Of a stretch of 64,000 nucleotides of DNA, positions 2,675 to 49,798 are shown in pieces. Under the pieces are notes generated by a model. That model saw only the letters and a program-made list of their open reading frames with translations. It did not search any database and had not been told where the DNA came from. Each line of letters begins with the position of its first letter. The first letter of the stretch is position 1. The stretch covers positions 6,882,001 to 6,946,000 of the forward strand of contig NC_079883.1 of NCBI RefSeq assembly GCF_029227915.1, given 5' to 3'. The DNA comes from Hydractinia symbiolongicarpus (taxonomy: Eukaryota; Cnidaria; Hydrozoa; Anthoathecata; Hydractiniidae). Made by a program: the position numbers and the translations under genes.

Positions 2675-4582
2675 TTAAATGAACGCAAACAGTAACTCAG
2701 AATCATTCGGTACAAGAACAACATTGGCTTCCATCTTTTCACTCGCTTTATAATGTTTTGGTTGAGCAAAGAAATAAAGACTTTGTCTCATGTAATCAAC
2801 CCAACTACCATGGGAAGTCAAACCAGTGGAAAAAATTTTCTCTTCATCCATTACAAAATCTACCCATAATACAACAGCATGTGCAATCCCAGCTCTCGAA
2901 ATACATAAACTTTCAGAGAAATACGTCTCCACCGCTGGCATTGGCTTTTCAAAATTAAATTCTGCTAGTATCATTGGTTTACTGATCAACCTGTTTTCAT
3001 ATTCCCACATGGCGTATGGCTCAACGTCTTGATAAAAACCTTGAGACATTTTTACAGGTGACCTAGCTTTTTCAATCAGAGAATCAAATTCTTTCATGTT
3101 AAAACCATCAACATTCTCAACAGGGGCATAAGCTTTCCATAAATCAGAAAATTCGACGACACAAGCTTTTAAGAATGCTTTACATGGATAAATTTTTAGT
3201 TTATTGTTGTACACACTTTGAAGATCTTGTGCTATTGTCCACAACGTTAAACAATGATGCCATGGTAGTAAGGAAGATGAGAAATAAGGATCAATAAGCA
3301 AATTACCAGAAAATGGCAAACCATTCGTATAATCTTTGATAATTTTGATATTTTTCTTATTTTCACTCGCCAAATCGTGAATAATTTGTTTCGAAAACTC
3401 TGAGCATTCGTAATATTTCAAATCAGTTTTACTAGAATGCAATGGAAATAAAGAAACATCTCCTATAATTGATACAATCTCATATTTTTTAATTAGGTGT
3501 GTAAACATTTGACATACTTCTACATTGTTCCATAATGCAAATCGCTCACGACACCAAACCACATGTAATCCACATGAACACAGGGGACGGTCTACAACAT
3601 CTGTAACATTACAGCATTTCACATCAAACCATACGCTATAATCATCGTAAAACATAGTGGCAAAGACATTGTCATTCTGAGAAACTTTCAGTGGTTGTTT
3701 TAAATAGTATACCACCTGCATCCAATGATCTCGCCACACGTATTTTGCATTACTTCTCATCCATTTTGGTTCCATGCTCAAAACAATATTTTTATCCTTA
3801 TGTAGAATTAAATCCCACCAAAACAAAACTGCGTGTATTATTCCCGACTGTGCCACATTTATGCATTTCTTAGTCATAGAGTACTTGTTATCGCAAGTAT
3901 GCTCGTGTTTAGTGTGAAAATTAAAACTAGTCATAGTAATTGAATCACTCAGCAGCTTTATATCTCTTGGGTATAACTGATTTACTTGCACCTCGTGACC
4001 AGATGCTAGTCCTGGACAATTTAATAGCTCTTTCGTAGAGAAAAGGTCATTTGATTGAAACTTGTTCATACTCCATAATTTATCACATTCAATCAACTGT
4101 ACTTTGACATCTGCTGATGCAGGTATAACTTTGCAATTATGAGTTAGCAGTCTGTTGTGTGCATCACGCAATGTTGGAAGAACTCCTTCGCCAATTAATT
4201 CAGAATCGAATATCTCAGTAACAAGAATATTAGCTTTAGAACTCATATCCGTTCCAATTTCAAGATCTGTAGAACACTTATTAACAACGTTTATAATATG
4301 ACTGAGTTTATTCTGCTCAATAATTTTAATTGCTGTGTCTCCCATCGGTTTAAACATTTCACATGCTGAGACAGAATTTGCTCCTGCTTTGGCTGCCATC
4401 ATGGATAAAATCCCTGTCCCACATCCAATGTCTAGAGCTTGTATAAACGGTTGGTTAATCATTTCACTGATTGTGCATTTCAAAGCTTCAAAATACTTTT
4501 TATGTCTTTCTCCATCATGCAACATACCTGCGTAAGTTGAACGTGCAATCTCATTTTTTAGGTCAGCCTCCTCTTCAGTCAT
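2675..4582 (-). CDS. PRMT7: Protein arginine methyltransferase 7
   Basis: A single uninterrupted ORF of 635 aa. The N-terminal SAM-methyltransferase domain shows motif I LDIGCGTGILS (50-60), the post-I acidic residue E75, and the double-E substrate loop TEIFDSELIGEG (122-133) with E123 and E132. The opening block EIARSTYAGMLHD (11-23) is characteristic of PRMT7. The protein carries a second, degenerate methyltransferase repeat (roughly 355-635), as PRMT7 does. PRMT7 makes omega-N-monomethylarginine on histones, RNA-binding and splicing proteins. Human PRMT7 is ~692 aa, and the present ATG lacks the first ~40 residues of the family, so an upstream exon may be missing. In the same frame the ORF is open upstream to a TAG just before GTTTGTC near 4626, and that CCATAG could be a splice acceptor (cis or spliced leader). 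The lack of introns is unusual beside its intron-rich neighbours. Confidence 0.92.
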   Translation of the reverse strand: MTEEEADLKNEIARSTYAGMLHDGERHKKYFEALKCTISEMINQPFIQALDIGCGTGILSMMAAKAGANSVSACEMFKPMGDTAIKIIEQNKLSHIINVVNKCSTDLEIGTDMSSKANILVTEIFDSELIGEGVLPTLRDAHNRLLTHNCKVIPASADVKVQLIECDKLWSMNKFQSNDLFSTKELLNCPGLASGHEVQVNQLYPRDIKLLSDSITMTSFNFHTKHEHTCDNKYSMTKKCINVAQSGIIHAVLFWWDLILHKDKNIVLSMEPKWMRSNAKYVWRDHWMQVVYYLKQPLKVSQNDNVFATMFYDDYSVWFDVKCCNVTDVVDRPLCSCGLHVVWCRERFALWNNVEVCQMFTHLIKKYEIVSIIGDVSLFPLHSSKTDLKYYECSEFSKQIIHDLASENKKNIKIIKDYTNGLPFSGNLLIDPYFSSSLLPWHHCLTLWTIAQDLQSVYNNKLKIYPCKAFLKACVVEFSDLWKAYAPVENVDGFNMKEFDSLIEKARSPVKMSQGFYQDVEPYAMWEYENRLISKPMILAEFNFEKPMPAVETYFSESLCISRAGIAHAVVLWVDFVMDEEKIFSTGLTSHGSWVDYMRQSLYFFAQPKHYKASEKMEANVVLVPNDSELLFAFI

Positions 4583-5404
4583 TCCTTTGTTAATGAATGA
4601 AATAACGAAATATATTAGACAAACCTATGGCATAGAAAACAAATAAATTTAAAGTTATAGGAGATAGATGATGTTAAACTTCTGCTGTAGAGATTAAAAA
4701 GCAACCAGGGAGCTCCGTTTATAACTGAACCAATTAGCAAGCTATTCCTGGTTTTTATATATTTTGATCTCTGTTAATGTCCATTATAAAACGAGTCCTT
4801 TGCTGAGCGTTTTGTTGAGTGAAGATGAAGAGAAAGAAAACAATCACTAAATGATTTATTGAGGTAGCTAACAAATTTTATCACAAATAACAAAAACAAA
4901 ATAAAAATAAAAATAATAACCTCCATTATGTGGTGGTGGGTGATCACATGCTGAACAAGTACTGTGCCTTTGCTTAAACAAAATAAACTTCAAATAATTT
5001 TAAAACAGTATAAATTTGGTCCTAGCAAAATAGTTGGATGAATTAGTTGAATTGATAAGGTAGTGGAAGAAAGGACTAGGAGAGGAAGGCTTAAGAGCAC
5101 AGCAATAAAGTCATGATTCACAGCATTAGAGTGAAGTTTGACACTGTAGTAGAAAAGGAGTTGGTTTTTTGTCGCATCACTTTTGAGTATTGGGTACATT
5201 GGTATTGAGGAAATGTTAAGAGTTGACATAGGTTTGTAGTGTAAATATGAAACTATACACAACGAAATATTTAGCTTTACAGTGGCACGTTAGAGATAAT
5301 TCAGAACAAATTGTTGACTAATAGAGTCTTGCCAATTAAGGTAAAAGGTAGGTTGTATGAGGTCTGTGTAGAGTGTTATGTTGTATAATGGGTACCCAAG
5401 CAGT
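4583..5404. other. Gene-free spacer upstream of PRMT7
   Basis: No supported gene. It should contain the PRMT7 promoter or 5' exon. I looked on the minus strand for codons of the conserved PRMT7 N terminus (N-P-x-T-G-x-x-E-W) and did not find them. A-rich simple sequence lies near 4888-4917. Confidence 0.35.
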
Positions 5405-39555: not shown

Positions 39556-42500
39556 ATGTATCTCACTGTCCTACTTTTGTTGACCGTTTGTCAACCAATA
39601 AGAAGTGAATTTACAGTGCGCAATGACGATTTTTACGGATTCTTTGGTCGCATGTTTCAACGAAGAACAGACGAGAGCGGAAGAAATTGGGAATATAGTG
39701 TCCAGCCTAATAAACTTGAATTGTTAAGGAACGATGCGGTCTATCCTGAGAAAGGTTGGAAAACATGTAAAGAGAAAAACAAGATCAAAAATAAGGAAGT
39801 TATTGCAAAAAATATGACATTTGAAGAAATTGCAAAGGTTAGTTCAAATTTGTTCAACAGAAATCCATAAATTATTTTGATGCGTAAGAAAGTAAAGAAA
39901 ACGGAAATTGTTTTCATAATCTTTTCAGTAAAATGTTAAAAACACAAACAAGTAAATATAAACTATGAAATGTGGAAGGTGTAGTTTTATTTATTAGTTT
40001 CTACTTGAACAGTAAACACTCTTAAAAGTTTTTACGAATCTCGTTTGTAAATTAAAGAAAGAGGAACAACAAAATTTTTTGTAAAAAATGTTACGGAACG
40101 AAACGTGTCCAATGTTGTACATTTTATTTATTAAAATATTTTTACCACATAATGCGTTGATGCATTCCTCTACCATGCTTGACAGGTCATGATTCGAAAA
40201 GGGGAATGGGTGTGGAAAAGTGATCACCCTTGTTACCTAAATTAGAGTGACAGTAAAATTATTTTTTTTAGTTTGTTAAAATTTAGTCGAAGTATGATTG
40301 TGGATTAAACTCCAGTGTCCAGAGGGTTATTGTGTTGTGCAGTCCAATATTCGCATTTGATTTCTGTAAAGACTGCAAAGAGATGTTTAAAATACCTTCG
40401 TTGTTTATCATGGCATGTCGATTAACATTGGTGTCATGCATTCCATTTTTTTTGCATGGAAGATTTTTTAGTCACTTTATCTTCGAGCGCACGCGCAAAT
40501 GCGTGTGGAAGGTTATAAATGTAAAACTGATCATAGGTCAAAGTTTTGTTAACACGAAGATAAATGACACGATCTGTCCATAGATGGAATGACAAATTAG
40601 ATATTTGATTGTGTATTGATAAAAGGTGAAATAATTGAGCTACCGTGCTACTTATCATCATCACTCATCTGTGGTGGGGGGAGTTGAAAGGACAGTCATG
40701 ACTGACCTTCCTCGACCTTCATTATGTAATATCTGTCGAAAACATTTTTAAACAATTATCGTCACGTTCCCCTTTAAAAGAAAATTAAAATGAGAGACCA
40801 AGAATTTAACAGTTTGGTCTTAAAACAAATTAACTTTATACCTTTTATCCGGTAACAAAGCAGTAACCCCGCCTTAAACAGCGACGGTAAGCCTTTTTCA
40901 CTGGCAACGAGCCAAGCAAATGTGGACGTTATTAATAATATTTTTGTGCTTATAAACCATTAGAAGCATAAGAAATCTGGATTACAGTATTGTTCGATTA
41001 CATGTAATTTTAATTCTACCAATTTCCTTATTTTAAACCTTCCGACAAAACTATTTTAATGGAATGTTACGAAATATCTTAAGAAGGGAAAAATGAAGTT
41101 CAGATGAGTTTTCCCTATCTTGAGTCATTTTTTATATAATTTTTTAAAAGTTAGGAATTTAAAAAAATTGATTAACTCTGTTTATGCCCGGTTATAGGGG
41201 AGCGAGGTAGTGTCAGGAGAGGGGATGGGGAAGGGGACAAAAATGCCCCCATAATTTTCCTTGTGTGTTTTTAGTTACAAAACTTGGTGAGAACGATGGC
41301 TGTCACACGATAATTAAATCATGACTGTCAGCAATAATTTTTGCTGACATCAGCAGTTTTTGTTAAAATTGCAGTTTTCAAAAATGTGATGTTGCGCGTA
41401 TTATATTTGTGATGATTGGTTAAAAGTATTTAAATTAAATTAAGTATTATTTTGATACGGATATTTTAACTATTCGAATATAATATGTATTGGTCAAACG
41501 GTGCGGTTTTATGTTAGTCAAGTGAAAAGTAATAAGTAACTGATGAGAGGGTGTGGTTGCAAATAAAACCATTGAAGGGTACTTCTCTTTTGTCTTTTCT
41601 CTTTATTAAAAGAACAATAATGAAAAAAATATTTTTAATTTGAAGAACAAGCTGTAGGTACCACTATTTATACGGCATTTGTCGTATGTTGGACGTTGTG
41701 TCGTACGCACGATTAAAATGGCAAAGTAACAGGACCAGTAGTGCATTATAACACGAGGATTAAACACTGACTGCTATGACACTGAGAACATTGGTCACTA
41801 AAATAGTCCTTCATGGCCACCCTAGAAGAGACATCTGCACAGATTGGTGAAAAGGCATGTATTGACGTCAGCGCTTGCATAGTGACGTCAGAAGCCATAG
41901 CAACAATAGAATGTCTTAATCCACCTTCAAAAGAAAGTTAAAAATTTGCAGACAGCTAAAAAAATGCGACAAGAAAAAAATGAGCTTTTATCAGATTTAA
42001 AGTAAGCGTACCCTGCCGACAGAATTACTCCATGTCTGTTTGACTCCCATTATTATTATTTCCAACTACAGAACTTCCGCCAACACCTAAAGTGTTCAAC
42101 ATATTTCTATTTCTACATTGATAACTCAACTTTTAATTTAACTTGTTTATCTTTGTGTTTTATTTCTAGAGAGTTGGATTTAATCATGTTCATCGAGACA
42201 GTCTTGCAGTTCGTCCCCATTGTCAGTTCGATTTCGTGTTCCCATCACGTGGTAACTTTACATCCCGGATGAGTAACGAACTATGTGTAATGGAGATGTT
42301 GACAGCTGGTGCAGCAGTTGGTGATTATGATAACGATGGATTGGACGATATTTTTTTTACTGTATACAACACAAGAAGTTTACTCTACAGAAACAATGGT
42401 GCGCCACCTTGTATTTGAATGTGCTTTCTTGCAGCACTCATCATTTTCTATGCACAAGGAATCACTAGAGTTTATCTTTCATGTTATATTAAAAAACTCG

Positions 42501-45500
42501 TCCTTATAACACGTTTTTACAAATATAAAATGGTGAATCAGCCATCAGGGATATGTTTAAAATTCTGTAACTTAGCCGTCCGTCATTCATATTTCCAGAA
42601 TCGTTATTTCATGAATCCTTGCCTGCCTGTTAGCATGAAGTAATAAAATTTACTAGGACGGGGGTTATTACTATGATTGGAGGTGCGATGATAATGGCGT
42701 ATTTAGTTACTAAACCCCCGGTTTTTAAATTGGCTCAAGACAGCCATATAATTTCAATATTGATATAATATTATTTGTCCTTTAAAATAAGTCTCCGTAC
42801 GTTTGCACAATTCTTATACCAAAACATTATCTCACCCCAATTTATTATTTTGTATTAAAAAAAAACGTTATCCCGATTTTATTTTCAGGTGATGGAACAT
42901 TCACAGATGTCACAGTGTCCACTAATGTTGGTCCAGAAAGATTCGGTAATGGAGCAGGATGGATAGACGTAGACTCAGATGGAGATTTGGATCTATACGT
43001 CACAACAGTGGGCGATTCAAGACATTACTTATATGTGAACCAGGGTGGACACTTTACAGAAGAAGCTATAGACAGAGGACTTTCCTTACAGTTTCCAAAT
43101 AATAGAAAACTGGCGGGCTTTACTCCAAACTTTGGAGATTTTGACCAAGATGGATTTCTTGATGTTTACGTTTCAGAGTGGACGTACCACTCAGTCTCTG
43201 GCGAGGTATGATTTAAAAGATAAAGATTTTTATAATACTAATGTATTATTTTATTTAGCGATATGTTATTATTTTATTTATGTGTTTAGGTGTCTGCTAG
43301 CCGTCTCTTCAAAAACATGGGTCTCTCTAAACCTGGGTAAATGAGACTTTATTTGTTTAGTTCAAAGTAAAAAGAACGATTTTGACATTGTGATGTTGTT
43401 GCAGAAATATAAAGATTTCTTAATTTTTGCTTTAGATACTTTGTGGATGTTACTGATAGCGCAGGTGTAAATATGGATGGTTACTGGAAAACATTTCGAA
43501 ATCAACATGGATCTGGTATACACACATTTGGAAGTTCTTTCACTGTAAGTACAACAATATTGAGAGAATTCAAATGTAACTGTATGGTTGGACTTTATTT
43601 ATTTATGTATTCATATGAGGAAGGTTTTTCTCCTATAGTAATGAATGTGTGTATGGCAAAAAATGTTTTTTTTTTAAATTATTTAAATTATTTTTTCAAT
43701 ACGCTTCCTTAAATTTTAATAATTTTAACTCAATACCTACATACGATGGCAACACTATCAACACACCTTACTCGAGATTATTTACTGTGGCATGAAAACG
43801 AGGCTCGTTGTAAAATTTAAACATATTTTTTTTTAGGATTTTGATAATGATGGCTGGCCTGAGTTATTCATCACAGGTGACTTTGGACAATCCAAGTTAT
43901 TTTGGAATAATAAAAATGGTACATTTTCGGAATGCACGTCGAAATGTGGCGTCAATGCAATGAACGTATGTTGTCTTTTTATTTCATTTAATAATGTGAG
44001 ATTGACACAGAACTAGTTGCTGGCTCCTGACAAAACCCTAAAGAAATATTTCATGCCTCCTCAGGGTCCCAAATAAAGCTGTACAGGTGGGATTAAAAAC
44101 GTTATTCTGATTTTATTTAACACAAAGACAAAATTTGATACAAATACTGAATTTTAATATCGACATTTTTGTAGGATGGAATGGGTCATACGATTGCTGA
44201 CATAAACAATGACGGATACATGGATGCATTCATAACTGCTTTGACATATTCTGCAAAAAGTTGCGCTCTTTACACTTGTGCTGTTGGAGCAGTCGGTAAC
44301 GCTCTTTATGAAAACCATGGAAACAGAAATTTCACAAATACAGCGATAGAGGTATACCTGTTTTAAAAAATGTTTTTCTTCAAGGAAGCTGTCGCAACCT
44401 ATGGATCTAAAGAGGTGGGGACGGCCCCCGAACATTTTTTGTCGATCATATATAATGTTGAAGAGATTTATTTTGGAAAGCTTACCTCCCGTGAATAAAA
44501 AAGTTGGTTTAATACTAAAAACTATAAAAGTTCTGTATGAATCTTTTTACCCTTTGGTAAAATATTTGTTTTCTATTAAGTTAGATAATTATGCAAAATT
44601 ATGACATCATAAGTTAGATTCTGTGAAAAAATTGTTGGTATAAATAATAATCAGGACAACTGAATATTTATATTCACGTAAATATGTTCAAAATATCAAA
44701 CTGGACTGGTTTACATATATACATCGCCACATACCTTGATAAACCCTTAAAACAGTGCTTCATTTACATCAAGTATATGACGTCATGATGTCATGAATTA
44801 ATTATAATTAATAAAGTCAAAAATCTTGAGAGTTGACTTCTTTCATATGAATCCAATTTGTTTTTTCGTAGGAGTAAGCTTTAAGGTCATAAATTTTGCA
44901 AGTTGGCTTGTCGTGTCCAGTAAAAAAAAGGAACATAGAAAAAGCAGTCTTGCCATGTTTATTTTGATTATACTGTTTATTTTATTGTAGCGTGGCGTTC
45001 GTGATGGTCACTGGGCGTGGGGCGCATCGTTTCTCGATTTTGATAACGACGGATTCCTTGATATAGTCTCAACCAATGGATTTGACAGTCCCTCCACCAC
45101 ACTCGATGATGAATATGGTAATGATAACATGCAACTATTTCACAACCAAGGAGAAGGGATGTCGAATGAAATGATAGATGTTGCCTTAGAACGAGGCATG
45201 AAATTTTACGGGTTAGGGCGTGGATTGTTGATATTTGATTTTGATAACGACGGTGATGAAGATATTATGGTGGCTGCCAACGTGGGACCACCAAAACTGT
45301 TTGAAAACAAAATTGGAAATAAGAACAGTTGGTTAAGAGTTCGAGTGTTCCATAAGTGAGTATATTTTGAAAATAATTTATGAATAATGACTTATGACCC
45401 CGTTAATTGTTTTCCCTTTTGACCAATATCAAGCCAATAATTTTCTGAGAAGCACCGCGTCGCTTGTAGCTTAAGTGAATAGTAAAGTTCGCAACGTTTT

Positions 45501-48500
45501 TCGAGGCTGACTCACCTTAATACTCGATTGTTTTTTAGATGTTTAACTAAAGCCTCCAAACTGTGTGATAGTTATGGTGCTCGAGTTCTAGTAACATCAA
45601 AATCTGGAAAGAATCAGGTATTTTTTTTTTGTAAATTAGCAGCAGTTCTTCATCTCTTAATTAACTCATTCTCTGTTCTCATCTATTCGTTTCTACGTCA
45701 GACATCAATGATTGGTTCGAAAACTCACTTCTTGGGTCAGAGTGAAATAATCGCACATTTTGGGCTTGGTACAAGTAACAAGACAGTTGCTGTTGATGTG
45801 TACTGGCCGACTTCAAAGAAAAGGATAACACTGAATGACGTTGCTGTCAATCAAGTTTTAAGAATTGTTGAACCAGAAGCGTAAGAAATTTATCTGAAAT
45901 TTTGTTTACCAGGAAAAAAATAAAAACAAAATAAATATGGTTGGCTGTAACTGCATTTAGAGATACACATGAAGTTCGTGATTCATCAACTGTGAAAGAC
46001 TGTCCCAAAATAAAAATATCACACATTACTACTCAGGTAAATTAAACATCATTTTTTTAACTAATAGTGCTCTGTTACATACGTCAATGGTAAATGTTTG
46101 ATTATGAATAATTTAGCCTACACAAGGATTTGTCAAAATAAATGAAGACGGAATTTCAGTGTCGTACCATCCTGGCAATTTGACGTTATTTGATATCGGC
46201 GTCCAACATTTTAAATACAGCGTCGACGTGCCTTTTCCCATATCACAGAATGTAACACTTAATGAAGGCACGGTGACGTTGGATTTTAGAGTGACACCTA
46301 ACATTTATCCTGCATGTAAAAATGGAAGACAAATAATTGAAAACAAATTGCCAGACTTGTCCGCCGATAAAAGGTATTGACTCTCTTAAACTTAATCAAG
46401 GCTGACATTGTACACTTAGCATAAAGAGTTCAAATGTTTTCTGACAAGTTCTGACTATAGGTAAAAAAGATAATGGTCGACGAAGGTTACTTGTAGTATT
46501 TCATTCAGATTCTTTTCTGCATTTTATTTACACAGACGTTTGGACGGACTATCCAATAATCGTGACAACGTTTACTGGGGCGCCACCAAGGAGGATCTTT
46601 TGAGATTTGCACCACATCGGTATGCAGACAATGTATCAGAGCCGGCTGGAGCGTGTACGGCACAACAAACTGTGTCGAAAACTTGCCCTTACCCAAAGGA
46701 ACTGAGTGGAATTGGTTCCAACCGACCATCGCCGAGATTAATTAGTAATACGCTAATGAGCCAGGTAGGAAAGAAATATTTCTTGACAGCAAAATCTAAA
46801 ATATTTTAAATGCTACATTAGGAAATTAAAGAAAATAAAATTTCGTAAAAATTTTTTATTCTCTTAGTTCAAAGATCATTTCAGTAAAAGAAATCTAAGC
46901 GATTTTACAATGCATTATGGGCAGGTAAATAATATTTGTTCTTCTTAACAGTGCTGGTATCAAAGCGTAGGTCCCCTATCCGTAAAAATTTTCGCGTCTA
47001 TTAATTTTCACACAAGTTTAAATTTCCCATGGATAAAAATAGGTGATTCAGGATTTTAGACAATTTAGATGAGTTTAAAACATCAGTTTTTCCGTGCGTA
47101 TCAATTTTTATTAAGAAATAGTTCACATGAAGTCATGTAGTTGCCACACATTTTATTCAATCGAATATGTTTTTCATACTAAAAAACTTTTAGATATGTA
47201 TTTCTTTTAGTTTTTGGTTCACGATACAGACCATTCATCGCCTCTTCCACGATTTGAGTTTCAATATTACAATAATCATGTCTGGATGCCCATTACAATT
47301 CCAAAGGTACGAACAAGCAGTCTGTTCAAGTTTCTGTCTCTTTGCACTCTTATAAAATTTCAAGTATAAACGAGCATAATTAACAACGTCAATTATGTTT
47401 AGGGAGATGTCCACTTTGATCCTTACAATACAGGAAAAGAAACAATGTCATTTGTCAGATCAACATTTAACAGGTAACTACTACTTCAAGTAATTTAAAC
47501 TGGATTAGAAAACACTTGTCTATTTCTGGGTAGAATGCACGCGTACATTGTTCTGCTTTGTATGAGTCATATTATAAATATCGCTAAAATCTATTTTTAG
47601 ATGCACAGGGCAATATCCTGGCACAGCGCCCCGCAGTCAATTTAACGCTATTACAGCTTACCTTGATGCAAATATGGTGTATGGGGTGGATCTAAACAGA
47701 TGCAGCCATTTGAGGGAATATAAAAATGGTAGACTCAGGATAGGACCAAATCTTTTGCCACCCGTAAGTACATGTTTTTTATTAACATAAAACCAAGCTA
47801 CAAAATCTGGCAACGATATGCATGTGATATACTTTCCTCTTTTTAGAAAAACGAAGACTATCTTGCGAATGAGAATCCACTTGGTAGACCAGCAAAAGAA
47901 CTTTTTATGGCTGGAGATATTCGGGCAAATGTTCAACCGGGTTTAATGGCACTACATGCTTTGTTTATACGAGAGCACAATCGTTTGGCGCATCAACACA
48001 AATTGAAAAACCCATTAGTAAGTTTGATATTATTCTCATCACTCAAAGCATTGAAATTTATCTTTATGATCAAAGTGAGTACCAACAGAAGAGAAGAACA
48101 CGAATGATTACCATCATAAACAACGATTTTTTCGATGATGTTTTTATCAGACTGTAATTGTTATTGTTTTTTTAGTCAACTGACGAAGAAACCTTTCAAA
48201 AAGCTCGTCGAATGATAATTGCAGAAATTCAATCAATAACATACAATGAGTATCTACCTGCAATTTTGGGCGGAAGTCATCACATCCCAAAATATACAGG
48301 TTATAAGAGCAATGTTAATTCTGGTATCACGAATGAATTCGCAACTGCTGCTTTCAGGTAGTTGTTCTTAGAGATTACTATCGTAGCATTTACAGGGTTT
48401 ATTAATCAATTTCGACATAAAATTTGTAAATTAGCTATAAGTATACAAACCTTATTTTATCTAGATTTGGACACAGTCAAGTCAACACGCATATTTTCCG

Positions 48501-49798
48501 TCTTCAAAAAGACGGTTCACCAATAAAAGAAGGACATGCTTTGTTAAGAGACGTTTACTTCAAACCAAACAGACTAGAGATGGAAGGAGGCGTCGACCCA
48601 GTGTTTCGTGGTGCGGTTGCTTTTCCCGCTCAAGAAATCGACTTATTGATGGTTGATGAAATGAGAAATACACTCTTCCCCACAACTGCTGCTTCTCCTG
48701 GTAAACAAACTGGATTTGATTTAGCTTCGCTTAATATACAACGGGGAAGGGATCATGGATTGGCTGATTACAACACCGTTCGCAAAAATTTGGGATTAAA
48801 AGGTGAAGTAAAAGAAAAATCAATTTTATACAAAATTTCATTTGCATAGATTATATGCGGCATGCTTTCAACATATCACATATATATTCTTTAGAATACA
48901 AATCATTTTCCGAAATTACAACAAATAAAGATGTTGTGAAAAAATTGAAATCATTGTACAAAGATATTAACAACATTGATCTTTGGGTGGGAGGACTTGC
49001 TGAGGATCATGTTAAAGGTTCAGAGCTGGGCGAGACTTTTCATACCATTATCGTAAAGCAGTTTACAAGAATTAGAGATGGAGATAGATTTTGGTATAAA
49101 AATGTCTTGACAAAAGAGGTGAGGATCCTTTATATACATCAAATCATTTTCGAGTATTTGATTGCTGGTGTTTCTATTGATGACAACGCCTAGAATGTAC
49201 ATAGTAAAAATAGTGTCAACAATTATAATTTGATAATGTCGCATTTTTTTCATAGGAAATCAAGGATGTTGAAGAAACCACACTTGGCAAGATCATCAGA
49301 TTGAATACAGGCTTTGAAGAATGTCCTGATAACGTTTTCTTTTCAACAAAGAACTGCATTGGTGTAGAAAAACACCAATGTGTACCCAAACTAGAAAGTA
49401 ATGAAATTGTTGAAATGAATGAAAAAAATAGACAGCTGAAGAAAGACGTAGAAGAAAAAGATGAGAAACTTAAATTATTGATTATACTTCTGGGAGTGAT
49501 AAGCGCAGTTTGTTTGTTTGTCATTCTCATTTCGGTTAAAATCGCAAAAACAAAAAGCAAAACAGACAAGGGTAAGGATATGTTATTTTTTAGAAACAAA
49601 AATTAAAAAAAATCAAATTTTTTAGTAAAATTGTTCTATCTGGAAGTGGAAATTGAAGGTTGTGTTCGAAATTATAAACAAATTCTTTTAAAAACTTTTT
49701 TTTTTATTATTTTAGGACAAATTCCATGTGTTGTAACAAACACACAAAAGAAGGACATGGTTGAACTGGGTGAACCAAATTATGCAGTCGAAGCATGA
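39556..49798 (+). CDS. Membrane-anchored FG-GAP / ASPIC-UnbV / animal heme peroxidase fusion protein
   Basis: Twenty-three exons, all phases agreeing: 39556-39837, 42170-42398, 42889-43205, 43290-43336, 43436-43544, 43837-43965, 44175-44351, 44991-45355, 45539-45617, 45702-45880, 45961-46036, 46117-46373, 46536-46764, 46868-46924, 47211-47306, 47403-47473, 47601-47763, 47847-48017, 48176-48357, 48465-48802, 48895-49118, 49256-49571, 49716-49798; 1391 aa. Signal peptide ~1-17. Seven D-x-D-x-D-G calcium loops (DYDNDGLDD, DVDSDGDLD, DFDQDGFLD, DFDNDGWPE, DINNDGYMD, DFDNDGFLD, DFDNDGDED) form an FG-GAP/VCBS propeller, ~95-535. ASPIC/UnbV domain ~555-637 (HFGLG, VDVYWP). Heme peroxidase ~749-1285: distal Q844 and H848 (GQFLVHD), R980 (GDIRANV), proximal H1075 (FRFGHS), N1162 (LNIQRGRDHG), calcium loop ITAYLDAN. 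Then coiled coil and one TM helix (~1337-1357). Expected to be a type I cell-surface or vesicle peroxidase. The two heme-ester carboxylates of myeloperoxidase are Val847 and Val983 here. Confidence 0.93.
39838..42169. other. Intron 1 of the FG-GAP/peroxidase gene
   Basis: The largest intron of the gene (2.3 kb, donor AAG|GTTAGT, acceptor TTTCTAG). No further exon was found: the frame is open from exon 1 to exon 2 in phase 0, and the ORFs at 40332-40583 and 39994-40227 lack domains. Confidence 0.5.

Follow-up and report, generated by a model that had tools for sequence, protein, structure and literature searches.

A predicted membrane-anchored fusion of a CRTAC1-type propeller with a heme peroxidase that lacks both heme-ester residues

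Covalently modified heme has been described as unique to the peroxidase superfamily, in which the number of ester bonds tracks redox potential (PMC4420034, PMC5787809). The typical signatures are GQxxDHD, except in families 4 and 7, and RxxE, with the first Asp and the Glu forming the two heme ester bonds (PMC4420034). Here we describe a gene of the hydrozoan Hydractinia symbiolongicarpus that joins a CRTAC1-type propeller to an animal-type heme peroxidase in which neither ester signature is present. It lies at 39556 to 49798, on the plus strand, of a stretch of 64,000 nucleotides (NC_079883.1, positions 6,882,001 to 6,946,000), referred to as the window; positions are counted from its first letter.

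Amongst solved structures the best relatives of the peroxidase part are the cyanobacterial 8s6c, Dictyostelium PoxA (DdPoxA) and lactoperoxidase (LPO), and that of the other part is CRTAC1 (cartilage acidic protein 1, PDB 9etn). CRTAC1, which carries a C-terminal calcium-binding EGF module, shares the fold of FG-GAP propeller and ASPIC domain with the window family, as seen in the model of the sea-anemone relative P0014. It is 21% identical in that alignment. By sequence it scores 75 bits, where the bacterial-type proteins P0098 and P0105 reach 397 and 390 bits, and, unlike the window protein, it has no peroxidase. Pfam found no EGF family in the window protein. Peroxidasin (Family 2), another animal heme peroxidase that is extracellular and built of several domains, combines its peroxidase with LRR, Ig and VWC domains; none of these families was found in the window protein with Pfam. 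In human peroxidasin 1 the heme is attached by two ester bonds (PMC5787809). Dual oxidase (DUOX, Family 7) has an NADPH oxidase part and has lost the proximal His, whereas the window protein has no oxidase domain by Pfam and does have the histidine (His1075). The peroxinectins (Family 3) lend their name to database entries for the Hydra and Durusdinium members of the family, and the window protein has at 876 a KGD tripeptide, the integrin-binding motif of peroxinectins. This tripeptide, however, sits in a peroxidase motif, PKGDxxFDP, that is also found in non-animal members. Peroxinectins group with arthropod and nematode peroxidases, whereas in a quick tree the fused sequences and 11 bilaterian sequences fall in separate clades. 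Finally, the peroxidases of Planctomycetes and other bacteria (8s6c, from the cyanobacterium TDX16, is solved) are 39-46% identical in the peroxidase domain over 80 loci; in some of them FG-GAP repeats come behind the peroxidase, opposite to the order described here, and ASPIC is absent from their listed Pfam domains.

A single gene found in sponges, cnidarians and algae

The exons were read and joined, giving 23 exons and 22 introns, every one of the latter (22/22) with a GT donor and an AG acceptor. The product is 4176 bases, or 1391 codons and one stop (ATG at 39556, stop at 49796-49798), in a gene span of 10243 bases, leaving 6067 bases of intron (10243 minus 4176). This agrees with the first-pass annotation, which had proposed 23 in-phase exons from the letters alone. 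Exon 1 (39556..39837) encodes aa 1-94, which begin with a hydrophobic segment that by eye looks like a signal peptide and continue, by comparison with homologues, with N-terminal strands. The propeller starts in exon 2 (42170..42398), at aa 95, where the CRTAC1 piece that we used also begins, and runs through exons 3 (42889..43205), 4 (43290..43336), 5 (43436..43544), 6 (43837..43965), 7 (44175..44351) and 8 (44991..45355), with Pfam support in exon 3 and FG-GAP matches in exons 6 and 7; a motif scan places the final two calcium loops in exon 8. ASPIC/UnbV begins in exon 9 (45539..45617; aa 564 at 45573) and is completed in exon 10 (45702..45880). A linker module occupies exons 11 (45961..46036) and 12 (46117..46373), to aa 748, and exon 13 (46536..46764) opens at aa 749, the very start of the Pfam An_peroxidase match. 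The peroxidase continues through exons 14 (46868..46924), 15 (47211..47306), 16 (47403..47473), 17 (47601..47763), 18 (47847..48017), 19 (48176..48357), 20 (48465..48802) and 21 (48895..49118) and ends in exon 22 (49256..49571), which also encodes a stalk and a hydrophobic stretch at 49475-49531; exon 23 (49716..49798) supplies a short tail and the stop. The introns at the two ends of the propeller are in phases 0 and 2, so the propeller was not transferred as a single symmetric exon set.

The exon borders lie near domain borders, as they might if two neighbouring genes had been wrongly joined. We regard such an error as having a negligible chance, since the frame is open through all 23 exons and relatives carry the same protein on what appear to be spliced transcripts. 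P0001 is 97% identical to the window protein over 100% of its length and has the same 1391 aa on a contig of 4432 bases; this contig must be spliced, as the window introns alone come to 6067 bases of the 10243-base gene. Five further relatives (P0003, P0004, P0008, P0009 and P0011) are likewise single open reading frames, of 1343-1454 aa, on transcript-sized contigs of 4444-5292 bases, and the same fusion recurs in the other proteins described below. Two adjacent genes are thus refuted for P0001, which reads on past exons 10 and 11, where the first-pass annotation had allowed that transcripts might stop. The fusion is confirmed as one gene, neither a chance juxtaposition nor two genes, with transcript support that comes from this near-identical relative and not from the window's own species.

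Running the 1391-aa protein against Pfam matched each of the three domains named in the first-pass annotation. An_peroxidase (PF03098) covers aa 749-1287 with 516 bits (E 1.4e-154) and profile positions 2-530 of 530, a whole animal-type domain. FG-GAP_3 matches in 4 stretches (E 1e-42), FG-GAP is also matched, and UnbV_ASPIC covers aa 564-631 (E 1.3e-12). The calcium loops that had been noted are present as seven DxDxDG motifs (aa 146, 197, 254, 329, 380, 446 and 513), and there are ten N-glycosylation sequons. Hydropathy gives one strong transmembrane stretch, aa 1333-1351, followed by the short tail, consistent with the membrane anchor proposed earlier. The model of P0014 has the CRTAC1 fold of FG-GAP propeller plus ASPIC, in agreement with the Pfam assignment, and in the fold comparison its propeller also resembles those of integrin alpha chains and LGI1. 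A Pfam match to AMA-1 at the C-terminus (19.3 bits in the window protein against a cut-off of 21; 21.2 in P0001; 1/27 members) was taken as chance because the C-terminal stalk is charged and coil-like. The stalk of P0013 (Sycon ciliatum) is very long and looks repetitive: the peroxidase is followed by 634 residues and the membrane stretch comes only at 1863-1881.

Three homologue searches, each scoring ~8000 candidates and listing the best 120 of ~8000, found the same order of CRTAC1 part, linker and peroxidase in at least 33 proteins besides that of the window. Those with names come from Hydra vulgaris (two), Clytia hemisphaerica, Porites lutea, Oculina patagonica and Actinia tenebrosa, from the sponges Corticium candelabrum and Sycon ciliatum (two), and from the dinoflagellate Durusdinium trenchii and the bolidophyte Triparma verrucosa, together with one MMETSP transcript. 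An_peroxidase, FG-GAP_3 and UnbV_ASPIC were matched at E 0.01 or better in 27/27 members of alignment A3. Among the matches listed the nearest to the window gene are genes of hydras and related animals, and none is a bilaterian fused protein, which, the lists being capped, is no proof of absence. In the trees 17 fused non-animal sequences bear the label 'protist', with hints of source for P0018 (dinoflagellate), P0022 (bolidophyte) and P0029 (MMETSP) only, and P0001, P0003, P0004, P0007, P0008, P0009 and P0011 were assigned to animals by tree position.

As the fused proteins of several organisms already sit in public databases, under names such as 'Peroxinectin' (Hydra, V9GVG1), 'Peroxinectin A, partial' (Durusdinium) and 'ASPIC/UnbV domain-containing' (Triparma), the fusion is a conserved family. 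The first-pass annotation had called the architecture undescribed. A literature search lacking most subscription journals and bioRxiv preprints found no description of the fusion in print, and to that extent the statement stands, but the protein is not unique. The fusion proteins would seem to be a multi-domain peroxidase family outside the family descriptions consulted in PMC4420034, and to represent a conserved, unstudied surface enzyme of the early-animal toolkit, found in sponges, cnidarians and marine algae with no bilaterian among the matches listed.

Heme pocket and likely chemistry

In the window protein the two signature stretches read GQFLVHD and RANVQ. Val847 (codon 47217-47219, exon 15) stands at the site of the ester-forming Asp of LPO and Val983 (47931-47933, exon 18) at that of the ester-forming Glu. 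In one alignment the Asp occurs in 0/34 fused proteins, as against 13/13 metazoan unfused peroxidases and 147/147 of the other unfused ones with a residue there (160/160 overall), and the Glu in 4/34 fused (P0010, P0015, P0021 and P0029), 12/13 metazoan unfused (P0294 has His) and 148/148 other unfused (160/161 overall); the unfused set consists of the best-scoring search relatives and is not a random sample, which tells against the contrast. Both residues are gone in 30/34 fused proteins, while the prokaryotic genome loci keep each of them in 79/80. The catalytic residues, by contrast, are retained: distal Gln844 (46922-46924, exon 14), His848 (47220-47222) and Arg980 (47922-47924) in 34/34 fused proteins, and proximal His1075 (48472-48474) and Asn1162 (48733-48735), both in exon 20, in 33/33, the truncated P0014 being a gap at 1075 and 1162. 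Other gaps are at 847 in the unfused P0314 and at 844 and 848 in one unfused sequence each. This loss of both heme-ester residues with the catalytic residues kept was missed by the first-pass annotation and, from the alignment, appears to be new.

By parsimony on the tree the Asp changed at least two times and the Glu at least four. One of the Asp changes is taken to be P0274, which has Asp in the larger alignment and Phe in the smaller; the larger was followed. The stony-coral proteins P0010 (Porites) and P0015 (Oculina) have Glu at the second ester site, which is Val in the remaining animal members, as if it had been regained.

A described parallel is DdPoxA ('Peroxinectin A', PDB 6erc), which falls in the same peroxidase clade (support 99; 87 and drawn open in the smaller tree) and likewise lacks the ester Asp, with Ile at the site. 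It is a secreted protein and its solved chain of 511 residues leaves no space for a propeller. Its ester Glu is still present and it has a single ester bond (PMC5787809); the window protein has Val983 at that site. DdPoxA has a lower Fe(III)/Fe(II) potential (-0.276 V) and is a fast oxidant of iodide and thiocyanate, but acts very slowly on bromide and does not oxidise chloride (PMC5787809).

We lean, on balance, towards the fused proteins being an undescribed eukaryotic family of type I membrane ecto-peroxidases, active with non-covalent heme of low potential and with the propeller nested in a split Ig domain. On the outer face of the cell a CRTAC1-type propeller of seven blades, loaded with calcium and joined to the ASPIC domain, would probably interrupt a split Ig module of bacterial type (Big_9). 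The heme peroxidase with its catalytic residues would come next, and then a short stalk, a single transmembrane helix and a brief tail. This enzyme would consume H2O2 produced nearby. Because the ester-forming Asp and Glu are gone, heme b would presumably be held non-covalently at a low reduction potential, which would favour one-electron oxidation of phenols, such as the cross-linking of matrix or cell-surface proteins through tyrosine, and the easy substrates iodide and thiocyanate over bromide and chloride, with the propeller picking the site of oxidation. As the one-ester DdPoxA is already weak towards halides we infer that a zero-ester enzyme would be weaker still. Several points weigh against this reading. 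While the propeller of the P0014 model is mostly confident, the peroxidase half has a low pLDDT (predicted local distance difference test). Among the fused proteins checked, which were all but the six added last, no C-terminal transmembrane stretch was found in Corticium P0012, Sycon P0121 or the non-animal P0016, P0017, P0021, P0024 and P0029. One ester bond is possible in the coral proteins P0010 and P0015 and in P0021 and P0029, because the Glu is kept there. No fused member is known to us to have been characterised biochemically.

The same residues bear on three other functions. A halogenating antimicrobial surface peroxidase, producing hypohalous acids as the immune peroxidases of vertebrates and arthropods do, would fit the distal Gln, kept in 34/34 and seemingly involved in halide binding (PMC4420034), and the reported antibacterial action of the relative DdPoxA (PMC5787809). 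Yet most members have lost both ester residues, and DdPoxA, with its one ester, is already a poor oxidant of bromide and inactive on chloride (PMC5787809), so we consider this unlikely. A shade less likely again is a receptor for adhesion or recognition, with the peroxidase serving only as a scaffold, as has been said of the DUOX peroxidase domain. The likeness of the propeller to those of integrin alpha chains and LGI1 and the loss of the ester residues could be read in this way, but each of the five catalytic residues is present wherever a fused member covers its position, while DUOX has lost the proximal His (PMC4420034).

Cyclooxygenases (COX) and alpha-dioxygenases hold heme non-covalently, and so the loss of both ester residues could also suit a lipid dioxygenase-like enzyme. 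The catalytic Tyr of COX lies three residues before the proximal His, a position at which the window protein has Arg1072, in an FRFGH context common to LPO; moreover the full set of peroxidase residues is kept and the best PDB matches are peroxidases, with COX far below. With no Tyr at this position the dioxygenase was set aside as very improbable.

Returning to the ecto-peroxidase, a broader reading that we hold tentatively, at rather less than even chances, is that surface peroxidases of sponges, cnidarians and algae dropped covalent heme stepwise while staying catalytically equipped, with an Ig-nested propeller as targeting head. The Asp would have been lost with the ancestor shared with DdPoxA and the Glu later. 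If so, the family would be an example from nature of a peroxidase with no ester, one step further than DdPoxA with its single ester, which was called unique by its authors in 2017 (PMC5787809), and would have been a pre-bilaterian matrix cross-linker or surface source of oxidant. A natural family without both links but with its catalytic residues would also be a ready test of what the links do. The Hydra foot has peroxidase activity and the role of Hydra peroxidases has been described as yet to be elucidated (PMC5080974). The Hydra members, annotated only as 'peroxinectin' or uncharacterised, are candidates for such work, although the window gene cannot be tied to the foot as the peroxidase entries seen in the table of that paper are plant-type (PF00141) and PPOD1-like.

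The linker module and a possible split Ig domain

The first-pass annotation saw no spacer between ASPIC and the peroxidase. This does not hold: aa ~638-748, encoded by exons 11 and 12, are a separate module of ~110 residues that in some relatives, though not in the window protein, matches the C-terminal part of the Big_9 profile. With the linkers alone the match spans positions 37-88 of 89 in P0024 (E 1.1e-9), 35-82 in P0022 (28.1 bits), 36-88 in P0019 (20.7 bits, under the cut-off of 23.6), 36-82 in P0023 (22.3) and 33-75 in Clytia (18.5). By eye, the absent N-terminal part of Big_9 resembles the residues that precede the propeller. When this N-terminal piece was joined to the linker the Big_9 score rose from 20.7 to 27.2 bits in P0019 (span 2-88; reversed control 19.9) and from 22.3 to 31.8 bits in P0023 (span 2-82; reversed control 24.3). 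In the P0014 model, strands at 26-71 (block means 84-87 over residues 31-70) and 653-734 (83-94 over residues 651-730) lie around the propeller. The propeller may thus be inserted in a split Ig domain of the Big_9 type, with exon 1 as its proposed first half.

Two cysteines flank the insertion, Cys71 (39766..39768, exon 1) and Cys652 (46001-46003, exon 11), and from their conservation we propose that they form a disulfide. Cys652 is invariant in the 21 sequences of alignment A1. In alignment A3 P0029 is the sole sequence with another residue at 71 (Ala) and it also lacks Cys652 (Gly); P0021 has a gap at Cys652 in A3 and Cys in A1.

A number of results speak against the split domain. Joining the pieces brought no gain in P0022 (28.1 to 27.6 bits), and with Cadherin_5, another profile that fits the linker, the scores barely shifted (18.1 to 17.1 in P0019, 20.1 to 20.6 in P0023 and 28.7 to 27.9 in P0022). 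The N-terminal pieces alone gave no Big_9 match (3/3), and none was found, even with the pieces joined, in the window protein, P0007, P0008 or P0012, or in P0003 (linker only). An Ig fold is not in the fold-match lists by name, these being filled by the propeller, so the split domain stays a proposal. By eye, P0019 and P0023 have one more Big_9-like repeat, placed before the proposed split domain.

Origin of the fusion and other stretches of the window

All trees came from quick searches and contain long branches, those of DdPoxA and LPO included. The smaller peroxidase tree took in 37 of 73 unfused peroxidases, the larger every sixth unfused sequence (24) and 10 of 13 metazoan ones, and the CRTAC1 tree 45 of 122 unfused CRTAC1 proteins (47 passed the length filter); P0014, with half a domain, was left out of the peroxidase trees and P0024 and P0101 out of the CRTAC1 tree. 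The fused animal sequences form one clade in both peroxidase trees (support 99 in the smaller and 100 in the larger). In the larger tree 33 fused sequences and DdPoxA are split with support 99 from 40 others (24 bacterial-type, 11 bilaterian, 4 unplaced and 8s6c), a fork that has support 87 in the smaller tree and is drawn open there. In the CRTAC1 tree the animals again form one clade (99), with the non-animal fused sequences near and the unfused P0173 among the fused ones.

Holding the fused sequences together raised the likelihood by 9.95 for the peroxidase half (p-value of the approximately unbiased test, p-AU, 0.683) and by 3.64 for the CRTAC1 half (p-AU 0.662). As the constrained trees outscore the free quick search for both halves, a single fusion event is allowed and is the simplest, though not proven, reading; multiple origins were not shown. 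Vertical descent and transfer between eukaryotes are both compatible with the constraint tests, which do not settle between them.

A bacterial origin of the whole fusion was not seen. The prokaryotic genome search confirmed at least 542 stretches, of which 80 were kept as loci, and 0/80 had a CRTAC1 match in the available flanks (tblastn with the window propeller, E 1e-5; flanks up to 6 kb and often shorter). Bacterial-type proteins with FG-GAP and peroxidase do exist, with no ASPIC among the listed Pfam domains of the eight checked. In P0249, P0251, P0278, P0283, P0286 and P0296 calcium loops follow the peroxidase, a separate, reverse-order pairing of the two folds. P0110 has four calcium loops before the peroxidase and one after, and P0311 a single loop ahead of it.

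Elsewhere in the window there is a galactosyltransferase-like open stretch on the minus strand at 878-1771 (PF01762, E 3.5e-05, 24.1 bits, cut-off 23), overlapped by a stretch at 1630-2262 with no family match. A stop-to-stop stretch of 649 codons at 2675-4624, also on the minus strand, matches PRMT_C in 2 stretches (E 1.4e-24) and so resembles a protein arginine methyltransferase.

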